From Bdellovibrio sp. (GTDB taxonomy: Bacteria > Myxococcota > SpSt-1050): 6,531 bases of DNA. This document shows positions 1,005 to 6,531 of this stretch, in pieces. The stretch lies in NCBI GenBank assembly GCA_020725805.1, contig DYEF01000028.1, positions 1-6,531 on the forward strand, in the 5' to 3' direction. Position 1 is the stretch's first letter. Each line of letters opens with the position of its first letter. Position numbers and translations under genes: made by a program. The notes under the pieces are model-generated. The model was not told the DNA's origin and did not search any database. It was given only the letters and a program-made list of their open reading frames with translations.

Positions 1005-1529
1005 ATGGGAGAGATAAAAAGACCACCTGATGTTTTGCTGATTGTAAGTATCCTCTATTGCAGAGATGATATGCTGGAGGCTGCTGTCAGTGAACTCGGA
1101 AAGGAGTTTGGCAGAGGCAGAATACTCGGCTATTCCGGCAGTTTCGACAAATCGGATTACTACAATGAAGAACTGGGAACTCCGATAATGAGAAGATTCT
1201 GGCGGGCAGAGAGGTTATTCCCAAGGGATATGCTTGCCGATATCAAAACAAAGACAAACGGAATGGAGTCTAAATTTTCAGAAAACGGCAAAAGGAGATT
1301 CAATCTGGACCCGGGATTCTTATCGGCGGAAAATTTTGTTCTTGCGACTACCAAGAATTATACACACAGGATCTATCTTAAAGACGGTATTTATGCCGAC
1401 CTGACCTTAATTTACAAAGGTAAGGAATTCAGACCTCTTGATTGGACATACCCCGATTATGCAGGCAAGGAGATAAGGGAACTTTTGAGAAACGAACGAA
1501 ATGAATTTATCAGAAGTCAGAGAGGGTAA
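1005..1529 (+). CDS. DUF4416 family protein
   Basis: The 174-residue product matches the DUF4416 family in length and motifs. An N-terminal KRPPDVLLIVSILY strand is followed by FDKSDYYNEELG (residues 47-58), RRFNLDPGFLS (97-107), THRIYLKDGIYADLTL (120-135) and a closing DWTYPDY (146-152). The Asp, Tyr and His residues clustered in the last three motifs are the best candidates for an active or ligand site. No enzymatic activity is established for the family to my knowledge. There is no signal peptide or membrane segment, so it is probably cytoplasmic. ATG 1005 is chosen because AAAAGGAA lies just upstream (991-998) and the family begins near this point. The stop is 3 bases before yicC, implying co-transcription and possibly a shared role with YicC and Gmk in RNA or nucleotide metabolism (inference). 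Confidence 0.9.
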   Translation: MGEIKRPPDVLLIVSILYCRDDMLEAAVSELGKEFGRGRILGYSGSFDKSDYYNEELGTPIMRRFWRAERLFPRDMLADIKTKTNGMESKFSENGKRRFNLDPGFLSAENFVLATTKNYTHRIYLKDGIYADLTLIYKGKEFRPLDWTYPDYAGKEIRELLRNERNEFIRSQRG

Positions 1530-1532
1530 GAT

Positions 1533-2399
1533 ATGCCGGTTTTGAGTATGACGGGTTATGGTTTTGAAATCACCAGAGACGGATATATGACAGAGATTCG
1601 TTCACTGAACGGAAAATATCTGGATATAAACATAAAGATTCCTCAGGAATTATATCCCTACGAAAACGAATTCAGGAATGTTGTCAAATCACATTTTGTA
1701 AGGGGAAGTATAGAATTGACGATTTCCCATAAGAATATGGAGAGGTCCGTACTGATTCCGCGGCTGAACAGGTCGTACGCTCTTCACTATATCAATATCC
1801 TCAATGAACTCTCTTCGATAGGCAAGGGAAAGGCTGACTTTTCATCTCTTTTGCAGATAAGGGATATTGTATATACAGATATCGATGAAAAGGCGGTATT
1901 AAGAGCTGTCAAAAATATCCTCGTCTCTATTGCAAATGTATGCGCGACTGTCGGAAGGATGAGGGCAAAAGAGGGGAGTGTGCTCAAAAGATTTCTTGTT
2001 CAGGATATCAAAAGTCTGAAACAGATCTGCAGTGGTATATCAGGGTTTGCAGGTAAACAGAATGATCTCATCAGGCAGAATCTCAGAAATAAGATATCGG
2101 AACTTGTGGCGGATATCAGGCAAAACGACAACCGGTTCGAGGAAGAGATACTCTTCTTTGCAAACAGAATGGATATTTCGGAGGAACTGGATAGGCTCTC
2201 GAGCCATATTAAACAGTTTGAATCGCTGATAAAGGAAGGGGGACAGATAGGGAGAAGGCTTGATTTTCTGTGTCAGGAAATACTGAGGGAGTTTAATACA
2301 ATAGGTTCCAAGTCCACAATGATTGAGATAAAGCGGCTCGTTATTTCAGGTAAGGATATGATAGAGAAGCTGAGAGAACAGGTACAGAATATCGAGTGA
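1533..2399 (+). CDS. yicC: YicC/YloC family endoribonuclease
   Basis: The 288-residue product has the family's usual length and both hallmark ends. The N-terminal YicC-like domain opens with MPVLSMTGYGF and continues with EIRSLNGKYLDINIKIPQEL, covering about residues 1-155. A C-terminal DUF1732-type helical domain contains FFANRMDISEELDRLSSHIKQF (from residue 208), NTIGSKS (255-261) and the final REQVQNIE. Members in E. coli and Bacillus are endoribonucleases that form hexamers and cleave single-stranded RNA in the cytoplasm; that activity is known from the family and not visible here. The start ATG has GAGGG (1522-1526) 6 bases upstream, partly inside the end of the DUF4416 gene. yicC lies immediately upstream of gmk in many bacteria, as it does here. 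No truncation or missing motif was seen. Confidence 0.95.
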   Translation: MPVLSMTGYGFEITRDGYMTEIRSLNGKYLDINIKIPQELYPYENEFRNVVKSHFVRGSIELTISHKNMERSVLIPRLNRSYALHYINILNELSSIGKGKADFSSLLQIRDIVYTDIDEKAVLRAVKNILVSIANVCATVGRMRAKEGSVLKRFLVQDIKSLKQICSGISGFAGKQNDLIRQNLRNKISELVADIRQNDNRFEEEILFFANRMDISEELDRLSSHIKQFESLIKEGGQIGRRLDFLCQEILREFNTIGSKSTMIEIKRLVISGKDMIEKLREQVQNIE

Positions 2400-2464
2400 G
2401 AATATATATGGGAATAAATGTGTACTGAGGAGTGTTTTTAAGTGTACGGGAGAAGATAAGAATT

Positions 2465-3088
2465 ATGCAGTCATCTTACAAAGGCAGTCTGGTAGTTCTT
2501 TCTGCTGTATCGGGAGCAGGTAAGACAACAGTGACGAATCATCTCTTGAAAACTGACAGGACTTTCGTAAGGTCTGTTTCGGTAACCACCAGGACCAGAC
2601 ACATAGGAGAGAAAGAAGGAGTTGATTACTTCTTTGTGTCACAGGATGAATTTGACAGAATGATACAGCAGGACAGCTTTCTTGAGTATCAGGAGGTGCA
2701 CTCTCATTATTACGGGACTCCGAAGAAGTATGTGCTGGAAAAAATAAAAGACGGGAAGAATGTAATCCTTGTCATAGATACCAAGGGGGGACTGAATGTA
2801 AAAAAGATGTTTTCGGATGCTATACTGATATTCCTTTTACCTCCCTCATTAAACGAACTTATAAAGAGACTCGATATCAGAGGCAGGGAATCGCAGGAGG
2901 AGAGGATGAAGAGGATAAAGAACGGTCGTGAGGAACTCAGGGACGCCCTCAACTATGATTATATCGTAGTAAACGAGAAGGTCGAGAATGCGGTTGAGGA
3001 TATAAGGGCGATTGTGCGGGCACACTTTCTTTCGGCAGGAAGAAACAGGGATAAGGTAATAAGAATTATGAAGGAGTACGAAATATGA
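2465..3088 (+). CDS. gmk: Guanylate kinase
   Basis: Transfers phosphate from ATP to GMP (or dGMP), giving GDP in the cytoplasm. Starting at ATG 2465 the protein has 207 residues, the usual length. The P-loop is SGAGKTT (16-22, Lys20). The GMP-binding region is SVTTRTRHIGEKEGVDYFF (39-57), then FLEYQEVHSHYYGTP (72-86) and IDTKGG, followed by the lid and adenine-side segment LPPSLNELIKRL...RGRESQEERMKRI and the late NYDYIVVN. Two positions differ from the usual pattern: the motif TTRxPRxGE reads TTRTRHIGE, placing His where an Arg normally contacts the GMP phosphate, and DxQG reads DTKG. An in-frame GTG at 2432 would add 11 residues, but GAGG sits directly against it; ATG 2465 fits family length better although its GGAG (2449-2452) is 12 bases away. 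The stop overlaps the next start as ATGA. Confidence 0.93.
   Translation: MQSSYKGSLVVLSAVSGAGKTTVTNHLLKTDRTFVRSVSVTTRTRHIGEKEGVDYFFVSQDEFDRMIQQDSFLEYQEVHSHYYGTPKKYVLEKIKDGKNVILVIDTKGGLNVKKMFSDAILIFLLPPSLNELIKRLDIRGRESQEERMKRIKNGREELRDALNYDYIVVNEKVENAVEDIRAIVRAHFLSAGRNRDKVIRIMKEYEI
3071..3076 (+). promoter_or_regulatory. Ribosome binding site of the S41 peptidase gene
   Basis: AAGGAG lies 8 bases before ATG 3085, inside the end of gmk. With the ATGA stop-start overlap at 3085-3088 it fixes the peptidase start and indicates translational coupling to gmk. Confidence 0.8.
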
Positions 3089-5946
3089 AAAAGATAATGC
3101 TGGTGGCAGTATCTGTTCTTCTGGCAAATATTGCGTTTGCAAATCTGCTGGGGATTCTGGGAGATGAAGGTGAAAGTTATTCTCTTAAAGAGATGAGATA
3201 TTTCAACTGGACCACGCTTCACATAGTGGAAAATTATGTAGACCAGAAGAGAGTAAATCCGTTTGAAATGTTTAAGGCGGCCCTAAGGGGTATTGAAAAG
3301 GCAGTCCCCGAACTGATAATAAGGTTCAACGAAGAGACACTGGAGATAGACCTTACAATGGGAGACAAACATGTTACAAAGCGACTCGAGAAGAAACCAA
3401 CTGTGATATGGGAGAATACGTTGCTTCTGAAGTGGGTCTTCGATTTTGTCGATACAAATGCAACGGACAGGAAGAAATTATATGAGGTCGAATTCAGTGC
3501 CATAAACGAGATGCTTTCCGAACTGGACCCGCACAGCAATTTCCTGAATGCGAGTCAGTGCAACGAACTCAGGATTTCGACAGTAGGTAAATTCGGCGGA
3601 CTCGGAATAATCATTCAGTCCAAGAACGGTTATGTTACCGTTGTTTCACCGATTAAGGGAACTCCGGCGTTCAAGGCTGGAATAAAGTCGGGAGACAGGA
3701 TAATCAGAATAGACGATGAATCGGCTGTTAATATGACCCTTGACCAGGCCGTTAACCGCCTGAGAGGAGAACCGGGGACCAAGGTTACAATTTATGTTAT
3801 GAGAGATGAGTGGACAGAACCGAAGAAAATGGTTCTCATCAGGGAGGAAATAAAGACGAGGAGTGTGGATAAGCTCCTGCTGTCCGATGAAAAGAAGGCA
3901 AAGAAAGTCGCTTATATAAAGATTAACGGTTTCAGTGATGAGACATATCAGGACGTGAAGAAGGCCTATAACGACCTGAAAGATGAGGCCAGAGGTCAGC
4001 TCTCCGGTCTGATTATTGACCTCAGGAATAATCCGGGCGGACTCCTTGACGCATCTGTCAGGATATCGGATATGTTTCTGAAAAGCGGTCTCATTGTGAC
4101 AACGCGGGCAAAGGACGGTGAAAAGGAGGATGAGAAGAAGGCGTATGAAGACAAGAGCGATATCGACCTCCCTATGGCCGTTCTGATAAACAGGGGCTCT
4201 GCCTCTGCCTCGGAGATTGTGGCAGGAGCACTCAAGGATAACAACAGGGCAATAATTATTGGACAGACCTCTTTCGGGAAAGGTTCTGTTCAGATTCTGT
4301 ATGACAGAGCTGCCTCTCAGGACGAACAGGAGAATCTCAGGGAATTCAAACTGACCCAGCCTGTAAAGGACTGTCTGAAGCTCACGATTGCCGAATATAT
4401 GACACCGGGGAATGTCTCGATTCAGTCAGTCGGAATTACTCCGGATGTCTATCTCGTTCCGCAGGTAGTTCAGAAACAGTCTATGAATATGTACTACTTC
4501 CCGAGATATTCGTCCGAAATGAAGCTCGAGAAACATCTGGAGAGTTCAAGACCTCCGGAGGATAAGCCGTTCGTGATTCTTCCGTTTGTTCTCGAAAAGG
4601 GGCTCGATGATGATGAGGAAGAGGATGACCCCTACGGGAAGGATATAAAGGAAGATTTCGAGATGAAGTTTGCAAAGGAGGTTCTTATTAATTCCAGAGG
4701 GGCGGGCAGGATGGAACTTGTTGAGACTGCAAAAAAGCTCAGGGAAAAGCATTATACCGCCGAGAGCAAGAAATTCTTTGATATACTAAAAGCCAGAGGG
4801 ATAGATTTTTCTGATGGCCCGGCAGGAAATCCGGATGTCGAAATAGGTGTTAAATACAAACTTATTGTATATAAAAACACCAAGGAAGGTTCAAAAAAGG
4901 AATCGAAGAAGGATGATAAGGCTATCGAAAAGACGGAAGATGTGAGCAGTGATATTCTCAGGGCAGGTAACGATTATTTTCTCACTTTCAGACTGAAAAA
5001 CAAATCCGACAAGCCTCTTTATAGACTAAGCGGAATTATTGAGTCCCACGACCCTGTTCTGAACGGTAAGGAGATATTCTGGGGGTATATCCCGCCGGGC
5101 GGACAAAAGGAGTACGACGTACTGGTAAAATTTTCGAAATCATTTCCCAAGGTTGCAATTCCGTACAGGGTAAGGCTCCTTTCGGGCGGTAAATATCTGG
5201 AGAAGAATTTTGAAAAGGTCCTTAAGGTAGATAGCCTTCCACAGCCGAGATATGTCTTTTCGTACAGTATCAGGGATAGCGGTGAAAATTCCAACAACAA
5301 CGGAAAGATCGAGAAGGGAGAGACAGTAACGGTTAAGGCCGAACTGAAGAATGCAGGTGAGGGCGAGGCACAGAACGCAAGAATCTCTTTGCAGAATCAG
5401 TCCGGAAAGGCAGTATATCTGAAAAACGGAATGTGTACGGTTGCATCTCTCAAAAAGGGAGAAAAGACCGAGTGCGAGATGCAGTTTTCACTCAGGGAAA
5501 AACCCGAATCGGACCTCAAATTCAAGCTCTTTGTTACCGATGACGTCTTCTATGAAGAGAGTTCGGTGACTCTGAAACTGCCGTTTATGAAACCGATTGC
5601 CGAGTACTTAAGAGGTGTGGTTGACCTGCCCGTAATTAATGTGGTCTCTGCCCCCGAACAGGAGGTGGTTGACAGCAAGAGCGCTGAGATTGTTTTCTCT
5701 GTCTTTAATCTCAAGGGCGGGGAGGATATCTATATCAGGTCAAATGAGAATAAGGCATTTTATCTGAAAAACTCCCAGTCAAAGAATCAGATCGAGAATA
5801 TCAAGGCCAGTGTGCCGTTGAAAGAGGGATTTAACAATATTTACATTTTCGTCAGAATAAATGACGAACAGTATATTTACAAACGTGTTGTCATTACGAC
5901 TCCGAAGAAATTCGAACAGAACGATATAATTGCGGGACAGAATTAA
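3085..5946 (+). CDS. Secreted S41 C-terminal processing peptidase with long Ig-like C-terminal extension
   Basis: The 953-residue product is about twice the length of ordinary CtpA/Prc-type proteases. A signal peptide (1-19) ends in AFA before Asn20, so the protein is exported. The S41 N-terminal helical part includes LDPHSNFL (147-154). A PDZ domain spans about 170-243 (FGGLGI, then SPIKGTPAFKAGIKSGDRI). The catalytic core has DLRNNPGG (312-319), the nucleophile in GSASASE (Ser374), GQTSFGKG (Lys399) and Gln403; the 25-residue Ser-Lys and 4-residue Lys-Gln spacings match the known Ser-Lys-Gln triad, so it should be active. The core ends near GITPD (450-454). Then come an acidic run (508-515), a helical stretch, a Lys/Glu-rich linker (597-619) and about three beta-sandwich segments (621-712, 723-830, 847-945). 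The second contains DSGENSNNNGKIEKGE (731-746), like the Asp/Asn-Gly loop opening CARDB-type domains. It resembles the long MXAN_5808-type peptidases of myxobacteria (from memory). Substrates unknown. Confidence 0.93.
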   Translation: MKKIMLVAVSVLLANIAFANLLGILGDEGESYSLKEMRYFNWTTLHIVENYVDQKRVNPFEMFKAALRGIEKAVPELIIRFNEETLEIDLTMGDKHVTKRLEKKPTVIWENTLLLKWVFDFVDTNATDRKKLYEVEFSAINEMLSELDPHSNFLNASQCNELRISTVGKFGGLGIIIQSKNGYVTVVSPIKGTPAFKAGIKSGDRIIRIDDESAVNMTLDQAVNRLRGEPGTKVTIYVMRDEWTEPKKMVLIREEIKTRSVDKLLLSDEKKAKKVAYIKINGFSDETYQDVKKAYNDLKDEARGQLSGLIIDLRNNPGGLLDASVRISDMFLKSGLIVTTRAKDGEKEDEKKAYEDKSDIDLPMAVLINRGSASASEIVAGALKDNNRAIIIGQTSFGKGSVQILYDRAASQDEQENLREFKLTQPVKDCLKLTIAEYMTPGNVSIQSVGITPDVYLVPQVVQKQSMNMYYFPRYSSEMKLEKHLESSRPPEDKPFVILPFVLEKGLDDDEEEDDPYGKDIKEDFEMKFAKEVLINSRGAGRMELVETAKKLREKHYTAESKKFFDILKARGIDFSDGPAGNPDVEIGVKYKLIVYKNTKEGSKKESKKDDKAIEKTEDVSSDILRAGNDYFLTFRLKNKSDKPLYRLSGIIESHDPVLNGKEIFWGYIPPGGQKEYDVLVKFSKSFPKVAIPYRVRLLSGGKYLEKNFEKVLKVDSLPQPRYVFSYSIRDSGENSNNNGKIEKGETVTVKAELKNAGEGEAQNARISLQNQSGKAVYLKNGMCTVASLKKGEKTECEMQFSLREKPESDLKFKLFVTDDVFYEESSVTLKLPFMKPIAEYLRGVVDLPVINVVSAPEQEVVDSKSAEIVFSVFNLKGGEDIYIRSNENKAFYLKNSQSKNQIENIKASVPLKEGFNNIYIFVRINDEQYIYKRVVITTPKKFEQNDIIAGQN

Positions 5947-6015: not shown

Positions 6016-6044
6016 TTGACATTTCAGGACAGGTGTTTTACAAT
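6016..6044 (+). promoter_or_regulatory. Sigma-70-type promoter for the small lipoprotein-like gene
   Basis: A perfect -35 box TTGACA (6016-6021) is separated by 17 bases from TACAAT (6039-6044), one mismatch from the -10 consensus. A start near 6050-6053 would leave a leader of about 35 bases before GTG 6088. It is the only promoter in the window that stands out by eye and makes the downstream small gene an independent transcription unit. Confidence 0.7.
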
Positions 6045-6075: not shown

Positions 6076-6082
6076 AAGGAGG
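6076..6082 (+). promoter_or_regulatory. Strong ribosome binding site for GTG 6088
   Basis: AAGGAGG lies 5 bases ahead of GTG 6088. With the promoter upstream it supports GTG 6088 as a real initiation site despite the very short frame that follows. Confidence 0.75.
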
Positions 6083-6087
6083 AAAGG

Positions 6088-6198
6088 GTGAAAAAGGAAT
6101 TAATATTTATCTGGCTGATTTTCATTCTGGACGGCTGTGAGGTAGGTTATGAAAGTTCGGATATCAAAACGTTTAAAAGTAAACTGCGAATGTATTAA
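6088..6198 (+). CDS. Small lipoprotein-like frame, probably the front half of a frameshifted gene
   Basis: GTG 6088, read as Met, gives 36 residues. They begin with a classic export signal: Lys2-Lys3, a hydrophobic core LIFIWLIFIL (5-14), then LDGC (14-17), a lipobox-like site with an unusual Asp at -2. Cys17 would be lipidated and the protein anchored in a membrane. The mature part is only about 20 residues (CEVGYESSDIKTFKSKLRMY) before TAA 6196-6198. The near-consensus promoter and strong ribosome binding site make initiation convincing, yet the product is implausibly short for a lipoprotein. The +1 frame continues as a cysteine-rich segment to 6313, and 6088-6313 is one base more than 75 codons, so a single extra base within 6146-6198 would join them into a 74-residue lipoprotein. 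Runs AAAA at 6166-6169 and 6175-6178 are candidate sites. Alternatively it is a genuine 36-residue lipopeptide. Confidence 0.55.
   Translation: MKKELIFIWLIFILDGCEVGYESSDIKTFKSKLRMY
6139..6142 (+). promoter_or_regulatory. Possible internal ribosome binding site for ATG 6149
   Basis: GAGG sits 6 bases before ATG 6149, within the lipoprotein-like frame. If used, the cysteine-rich frame would be translated separately. The GAG also encodes residue 18 of the first frame, so the match may be coincidental. Confidence 0.35.
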
Positions 6199-6313
6199 TT
6201 GCAGGTGGATATGCGCCTGTTCCGACTGCTTTGACTGGATGTGCGATGCAGGATATGATACGGGAACCGATGTGTCCGGTCTGCCGGATTCGGATAATAT
6301 CGCCGATCAGTAA
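6149..6313 (+). CDS. Cysteine-rich mini-protein with tandem CxCxxC modules
   Basis: ATG 6149 gives 54 residues ending at TAA 6311-6313; the frame is open only from 6146. Seven cysteines fall between residues 13 and 32 in a regular order: CECINC-RWI then CACSDC-FDWM, followed by C32. Each unit is C-x-C-x-x-C followed by Trp and Ile or Met, so it reads as a short tandem duplication, and the C-terminal 22 residues (DAGYDTGTDVSGLPDSDNIADQ) are acidic and polar. Such spacing suits metal binding or dense disulfides, but I recognise no family. CDAGYDTGTD (32-41) echoes CEVGYESSD in the overlapping upstream frame, which favours both being parts of one secreted lipoprotein broken by a +1 shift. Alternatively it starts at 6149 with GAGG as ribosome binding site and remains in the cytoplasm, since it has no signal peptide of its own. 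The regular cysteine pattern argues that this frame is or was coding. Confidence 0.5.
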   Translation: MKVRISKRLKVNCECINCRWICACSDCFDWMCDAGYDTGTDVSGLPDSDNIADQ

Positions 6314-6334
6314 AAAAGGTGTTAAAAAGGTGTC
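6313..6334 (+). repeat. 11-base tandem repeat at the left edge of the inverted-repeat element
   Basis: AAAAAGGTGTT (6313-6323) is followed directly by AAAAAGGTGTC (6324-6334), identical except for the last base. The second copy contains the first bases of the inverted repeat GGTGTCAT. It may be a slippage product, a second binding site of a terminus, or chance in A-rich DNA. Confidence 0.45.
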
Positions 6335-6524
6335 ATCTATGAAAGTGGGTTGTCAAGAGAAAAATCGTTTCTATCCATAATCAAATTGGAATAATTTGTT
6401 CATATCCCATATTCCAAAGCCATAAGGGTTCTCACCCATCTATTCGAGGTCTATTTGCCTCAGGTTTTTTATTTGAGGCCCCAAAGCCGCATACAGGTAC
6501 AAAACCTCTTATGGTTATGACACC
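6329..6524. mobile_element. Candidate non-autonomous inverted-repeat element (MITE-like)
   Basis: GGTGTCAT (6329-6336) and its exact reverse complement ATGACACC (6517-6524) face inward 196 bases apart. Reading inward from both ends, the match resumes after six unrelated bases as AAG-x-GG-x-TT, giving an imperfect terminal repeat of about 23 bases, the layout expected of a cleavage tip plus an inner transposase-binding block. The interior has no credible coding frame and carries several foldbacks. No clear target-site duplication is visible: the left flank is GTTAAAAA and only 7 bases remain on the right. It could instead be a structured non-coding locus or chance. I cannot name a parent insertion sequence. 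Confidence 0.4.
6420..6514 (+). repeat. Nested inverted repeats inside the 3' non-coding region
   Basis: CCATAAG (6420-6426) pairs with CTTATGG (6508-6514) and, skipping T6507, GGTT (6427-6430) pairs with AACC (6503-6506), giving an 11-bp interrupted stem. Inside it GCCTCA (6457-6462) pairs with TGAGGC (6474-6479) over an 11-base T-rich loop, and smaller stems GGGT/ACCC (6426-6429, 6434-6437) and AGGT/ACCT (6495-6498, 6504-6507) are alternatives. CCAAAGCC also occurs twice in direct orientation (6414-6421, 6481-6488). The T run lies in a loop and not after a stem, so this is not called a terminator. Confidence 0.5.
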
Positions 6525-6531
6525 ACAAAGC

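Follow-up and report, generated by a model that had tools for sequence, protein, structure and literature searches.

Does the cysteine-rich open reading frame at the end of this contig encode a small protein of its own, or is it a piece of something else? The frame runs from ATG to TAA at positions 6149–6313 of the window, by which we mean the whole stretch of DNA that was analysed (6531 bases, the entire contig C23 of a 3.29 Mb draft genome made up of 115 contigs). The initial annotation had taken it for a tandem CxCxxC mini-protein. We believe that it is the out-of-frame 3' part of a surface-lipoprotein leader, whose gene has been frameshifted and truncated or was broken by an assembly error, and we put the probability of this at roughly two in three (0.68). 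All features are given on the forward strand.

Genomic context and the repeat border

The window carries genes for a DUF4416 protein, YicC, guanylate kinase and an S41/PDZ peptidase with a CARDB-like part. The sister species (L053) keeps the order of these four (1005–5946), an indication that DUF4416 has a functional link to the YicC, guanylate kinase and S41 group. Near the other end of the contig there is an ATG at 111 (111–164) with GGAGG in front of it that overlaps the stop of the preceding frame and opens just 17 codons, and a long frame at 121–936 (271 aa) that has no family match and lacks a good start. This is possibly a second frame break in the contig.

The intergenic stretch 3' of the S41 peptidase gene, where our reading frame lies, has no counterpart in the relatives. 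In the sister species the S41 protein is 78% identical, and a convergent lipoprotein gene lies directly behind it. The orthologue of that lipoprotein in our genome (81% identical) is on another contig and in another context, so the spot behind the S41 gene has been rearranged.

A multi-copy repeat starts at 6329 with GGTGYCATCTATGAAAGTGGGTTGTC and continues to the end of the window at 6531. It ends this contig and eleven others of the same genome (G000: C14, C59, C96, C6, C107, C54, C51, C90, C73, C114 and C105). The border is sharp, with the same GGTGYCATCTATGAAAGTGGGTTGTC at all 12 contig ends and a variable number of A (0–4 or more) before it. We did not find the repeat from 6329 in 18 relatives, in plasmids or in IMG/VR. 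It is likely to be a mobile element at which the assembly broke off. On one of these contigs (L079, G000:C105) the last ~30 bases, AGATCGGAAGAAGCACACGTCTGAACTCC, come right after the repeat border and look like leftover sequencing-adapter sequence.

The open reading frame and its cysteines

The frame at 6149–6313 is open and reads MKVRISKRLKVNCECINCRWICACSDCFDWMCDAGYDTGTDVSGLPDSDNIADQ (54 aa), with cysteines at 13, 15, 18, 22, 24, 27 and 32. As the initial annotation described, these form two CxCxxC units, with C18-R-W-I-C22 and C27-F-D-W-M-C32, and an acidic tail follows. On the mini-protein reading, WICACSDCFDWMCDAGYDTGTDVSGLPDSDNIADQ would be a tryptic peptide of the product. GAGG lies six bases 5' of ATG 6149. 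Structure prediction of the 54 residues gave no confident fold (AlphaFold, pLDDT 47, single sequence), and the frame has no export signal of its own.

How unusual this is depends on what is compared. In first-order Markov simulations of the intergenic stretch, an open reading frame of at least 54 aa was present in 38% of cases, so its length is not notable. A pair of CxCxxC units within one open segment was rare in the same simulations (5e-5). The two units arose in 0.13% of shuffles of the residues of the whole frame and in 2.7% when the Cys-rich block alone was shuffled, so they are less exceptional once the local richness in cysteine is allowed for. We also scanned a genome collection and a viral collection for the motif with a stricter DNA pattern, which gave at least 275 matches. 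Among the 275 matches listed, another frame was longer in 271, and 205 had a matched frame below 100 codons next to another of at least 150. Shadow frames thus produce this spacing often, and the spacing alone does not argue for a protein.

A lipoprotein start in the neighboring frame

A better start lies just upstream in frame 1. A sigma-70-like promoter match, TTGACA-17-TACAAT at 6016–6044, is identified by its agreement with the consensus only (11 of 12 bases), and it ends 44 bases 5' of a GTG at 6088. A perfect Shine-Dalgarno sequence, AAGGAGG at 6076–6082, lies five bases 5' of this GTG. The promoter that the initial annotation had placed in front of the mini-protein is thus real as a match to the consensus, but the start codon that it precedes is in another frame and has a ribosome-binding site that is much better.

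The frame of GTG 6088 encodes MKKELIFIWLIFILDGCEVGYESSDIK, and the frame of 6149–6313 is the next one and overlaps it. By inspection, GTG 6088 opens a lipoprotein signal peptide, MKKELIFIWLIFILDGC, with the features of Sec/SPII export: basic N-terminal residues, a hydrophobic stretch and a lipobox with its cysteine. The lipoprotein start in frame 1 covers 6088–6168, (M)KKELIFIWLIFILDGC-EVGYESSDIK, in which the lipobox is LDGC and its cysteine is Cys 17. The Asp at -2 is an unusual lipobox residue. The signal and the mature part do not share a single open frame: frame 1 stops at 6198, and frame 2 carries the mature part. For this reason we speak of the remnant of a lipoprotein gene and not of a working member. 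Translation from GTG 6088 would yield 36 residues before the stop at 6198, and we therefore expect little or no functional product.

Codon usage and a probable frame break

We compared codon usage, scored among synonymous codons only, with long open frames of the same genome (29, later a few more). These stretches have only 9–43 codons, and we designed the test after we had seen both frames, so the percentiles should be read with this in mind: frame 1 at 6088–6168 scores at the 17th percentile of genuine windows, which is inside their range, and 17% of open off-frames do as well; frame 2 at 6182–6310 is genuine-like (70th percentile, a score reached by 1.6% of open off-frames). Frame 1 at 6169–6195 falls below all genuine windows, and so does frame 2 at 6149–6181, the first 11 codons of the open reading frame, which look non-coding. 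The usage thus switches from frame 1 to frame 2 between 6168 and 6182. Frame 3 (6183–6377) was favored locally by a plain codon score; synonymous scoring went against it, and its matches in the same genome are repeat DNA only.

Both switches fall on TTTAAAAGTAAA, which suggests one frame break there. The apparent break is within 6172–6183, where there seems to be one base too many, and we infer that it is either a true mutation or an error of the draft assembly. A single four-base step joins the two parts into 74 open codons, (M)KKELIFIWLIFILDGCEVGYESSDIKTFKSNCECINCRWICACSDCFDWMCDAGYDTGTDVSGLPDSDNIADQ, in the order signal, lipobox, Cys-rich block and acidic DTGTD linker. From the codon usage, residues 1–11 of the open reading frame (6149–6181) are probably not translated, and the leader of the lipoprotein probably continues at 6182–6310, with its Cys block and acidic DTGTD linker.

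Comparison with other lipoprotein leaders

A pattern search found eight other DTGTD-coding sites in the genome, and six of them are in N-terminal regions behind a lipobox cysteine (L084–L089). The leaders of L084, L087 and L089 resemble the joined sequence in having a hydrophobic signal, a lipobox cysteine and a DTGTD-type acidic linker, and in L084, as in the joined sequence, a Cys module adjoins the linker. Unlike the joined sequence, which has a frame break and no domain, leaders of this type are in one frame and run into large domains, with open frames of 538–558 codons in the stretches examined.

A search of the phylum with the joined sequence gave three matches at chance level. One of them, L340 (G122, same phylum), spans the joined sequence with an E-value of 0.004 per genome, which is not significant over 195 genomes. 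L340 is a lipoprotein with a signal, a GC lipobox, a short Cys module and an Asp-rich linker in the same order, although its linker is DSGTPD, its Cys spacing is different and it is a single frame of 575 codons. To judge from this arrangement, the likeness supports the kind of protein and not a relationship.

Searches for homologues

The initial annotation had looked to homologues with conserved cysteines as support for a mini-protein, and as far as the collections searched reach there are none. Searches of the sister species and further relatives, of 195 genomes of the same phylum, and of 84,980 species genomes, IMG/VR, plasmids and phages gave no homologue of the frame at 6149–6313, and hence no homologues among which the Cys spacing could be conserved. 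The joined lipoprotein sequence had no significant homologue in the relatives or the 195 phylum genomes, where tblastn, run also on the genome itself, gave matches at chance level only; no intact homologue across the frame break turned up in these searches. Pfam and NCBIfam profiles gave no match up to an E-value of 1, Rfam gave none, and a search of the PDB returned nothing meaningful. A literature search on such lipoprotein linkers brought up no directly relevant paper.

Weighing the explanations

The strongest competitor is still unlikely: that the frame is open by chance, in non-coding or decayed sequence lying between the S41 gene and the start of the repeat, with the Cys spacing a coincidence of a TGY-rich stretch. 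Frames of this length are common by chance (38%), no collection searched has a homologue, and the Cys motif is mostly in shadow frames among the matches listed. A chance frame does not account well for the genuine-like codon usage of frame 2 at 6182–6310, which only 1.6% of off-frames reach, or for a tail that resembles lipoprotein linkers of the same genome. We give still less weight to a genuine, species-specific 54-residue Cys-rich protein that starts at ATG 6149, may be coupled to the 36-codon frame upstream and would bind a metal through the two CxCxxC units. The open frame is intact, its duplicated spacing is rare in random sequence and GAGG lies six bases before the ATG, but the first 11 codons look non-coding, there is no homologue and no export signal in frame 2, the better start is the one in frame 1, and the prediction gave no confident fold (pLDDT 47, single sequence). 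An independent mini-protein from 6149 is thus made unlikely by the codon usage, the searches and the lipoprotein start just upstream. The suggestion of a disulfide-rich secreted peptide was a reasonable guess for the Cys block, which is probably coding and exported, but not as a stand-alone protein.

Further readings keep a functional product. Programmed +1 frameshifting at TTTAAAAGTAAA could give an intact short lipoprotein, and the two open parts do meet at an A-rich site. However, no relative has a conserved case, we could not identify a known +1 signal, and so close to the end of a contig a mutation or an assembly error is the simpler account; we consider programmed frameshifting very improbable. 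It is improbable, if less so, that the locus encodes a small, functional, lineage-specific Cys-rich product peculiar to this species, either a lipoprotein or a free peptide, with a putative metal site made of the duplicated CxCxxC. The product may also be a short intact 74-residue lipoprotein with no further domain.

The frame-broken leader brings together the two frames, the signals, the codon-usage switch, the missing homologues and the repeat boundary. The lipoprotein gene would start at GTG 6088 in frame 1 with a Sec/SPII signal peptide and the lipobox LDGC. Past a one-base break near 6172–6183, the leader would go on in frame 2 through the Cys-rich block and the acidic DTGTD-type linker and end at 6313, beside the repeat element and 11–15 bases 5' of it. 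The large extracellular domain that normally lies behind such leaders in this genome is missing here, so the arrival or recombination of the repeat element probably truncated the gene. An intact product would carry its lipid at Cys 17 and be anchored in the envelope, with the remaining cysteines in disulfides.

This case calls for caution, as a striking Cys pattern in a short open reading frame may have its origin in a shadow frame or in a leader whose frame is broken. Such cases are resolved by checking the neighboring frames for a start site and a switch in codon usage.
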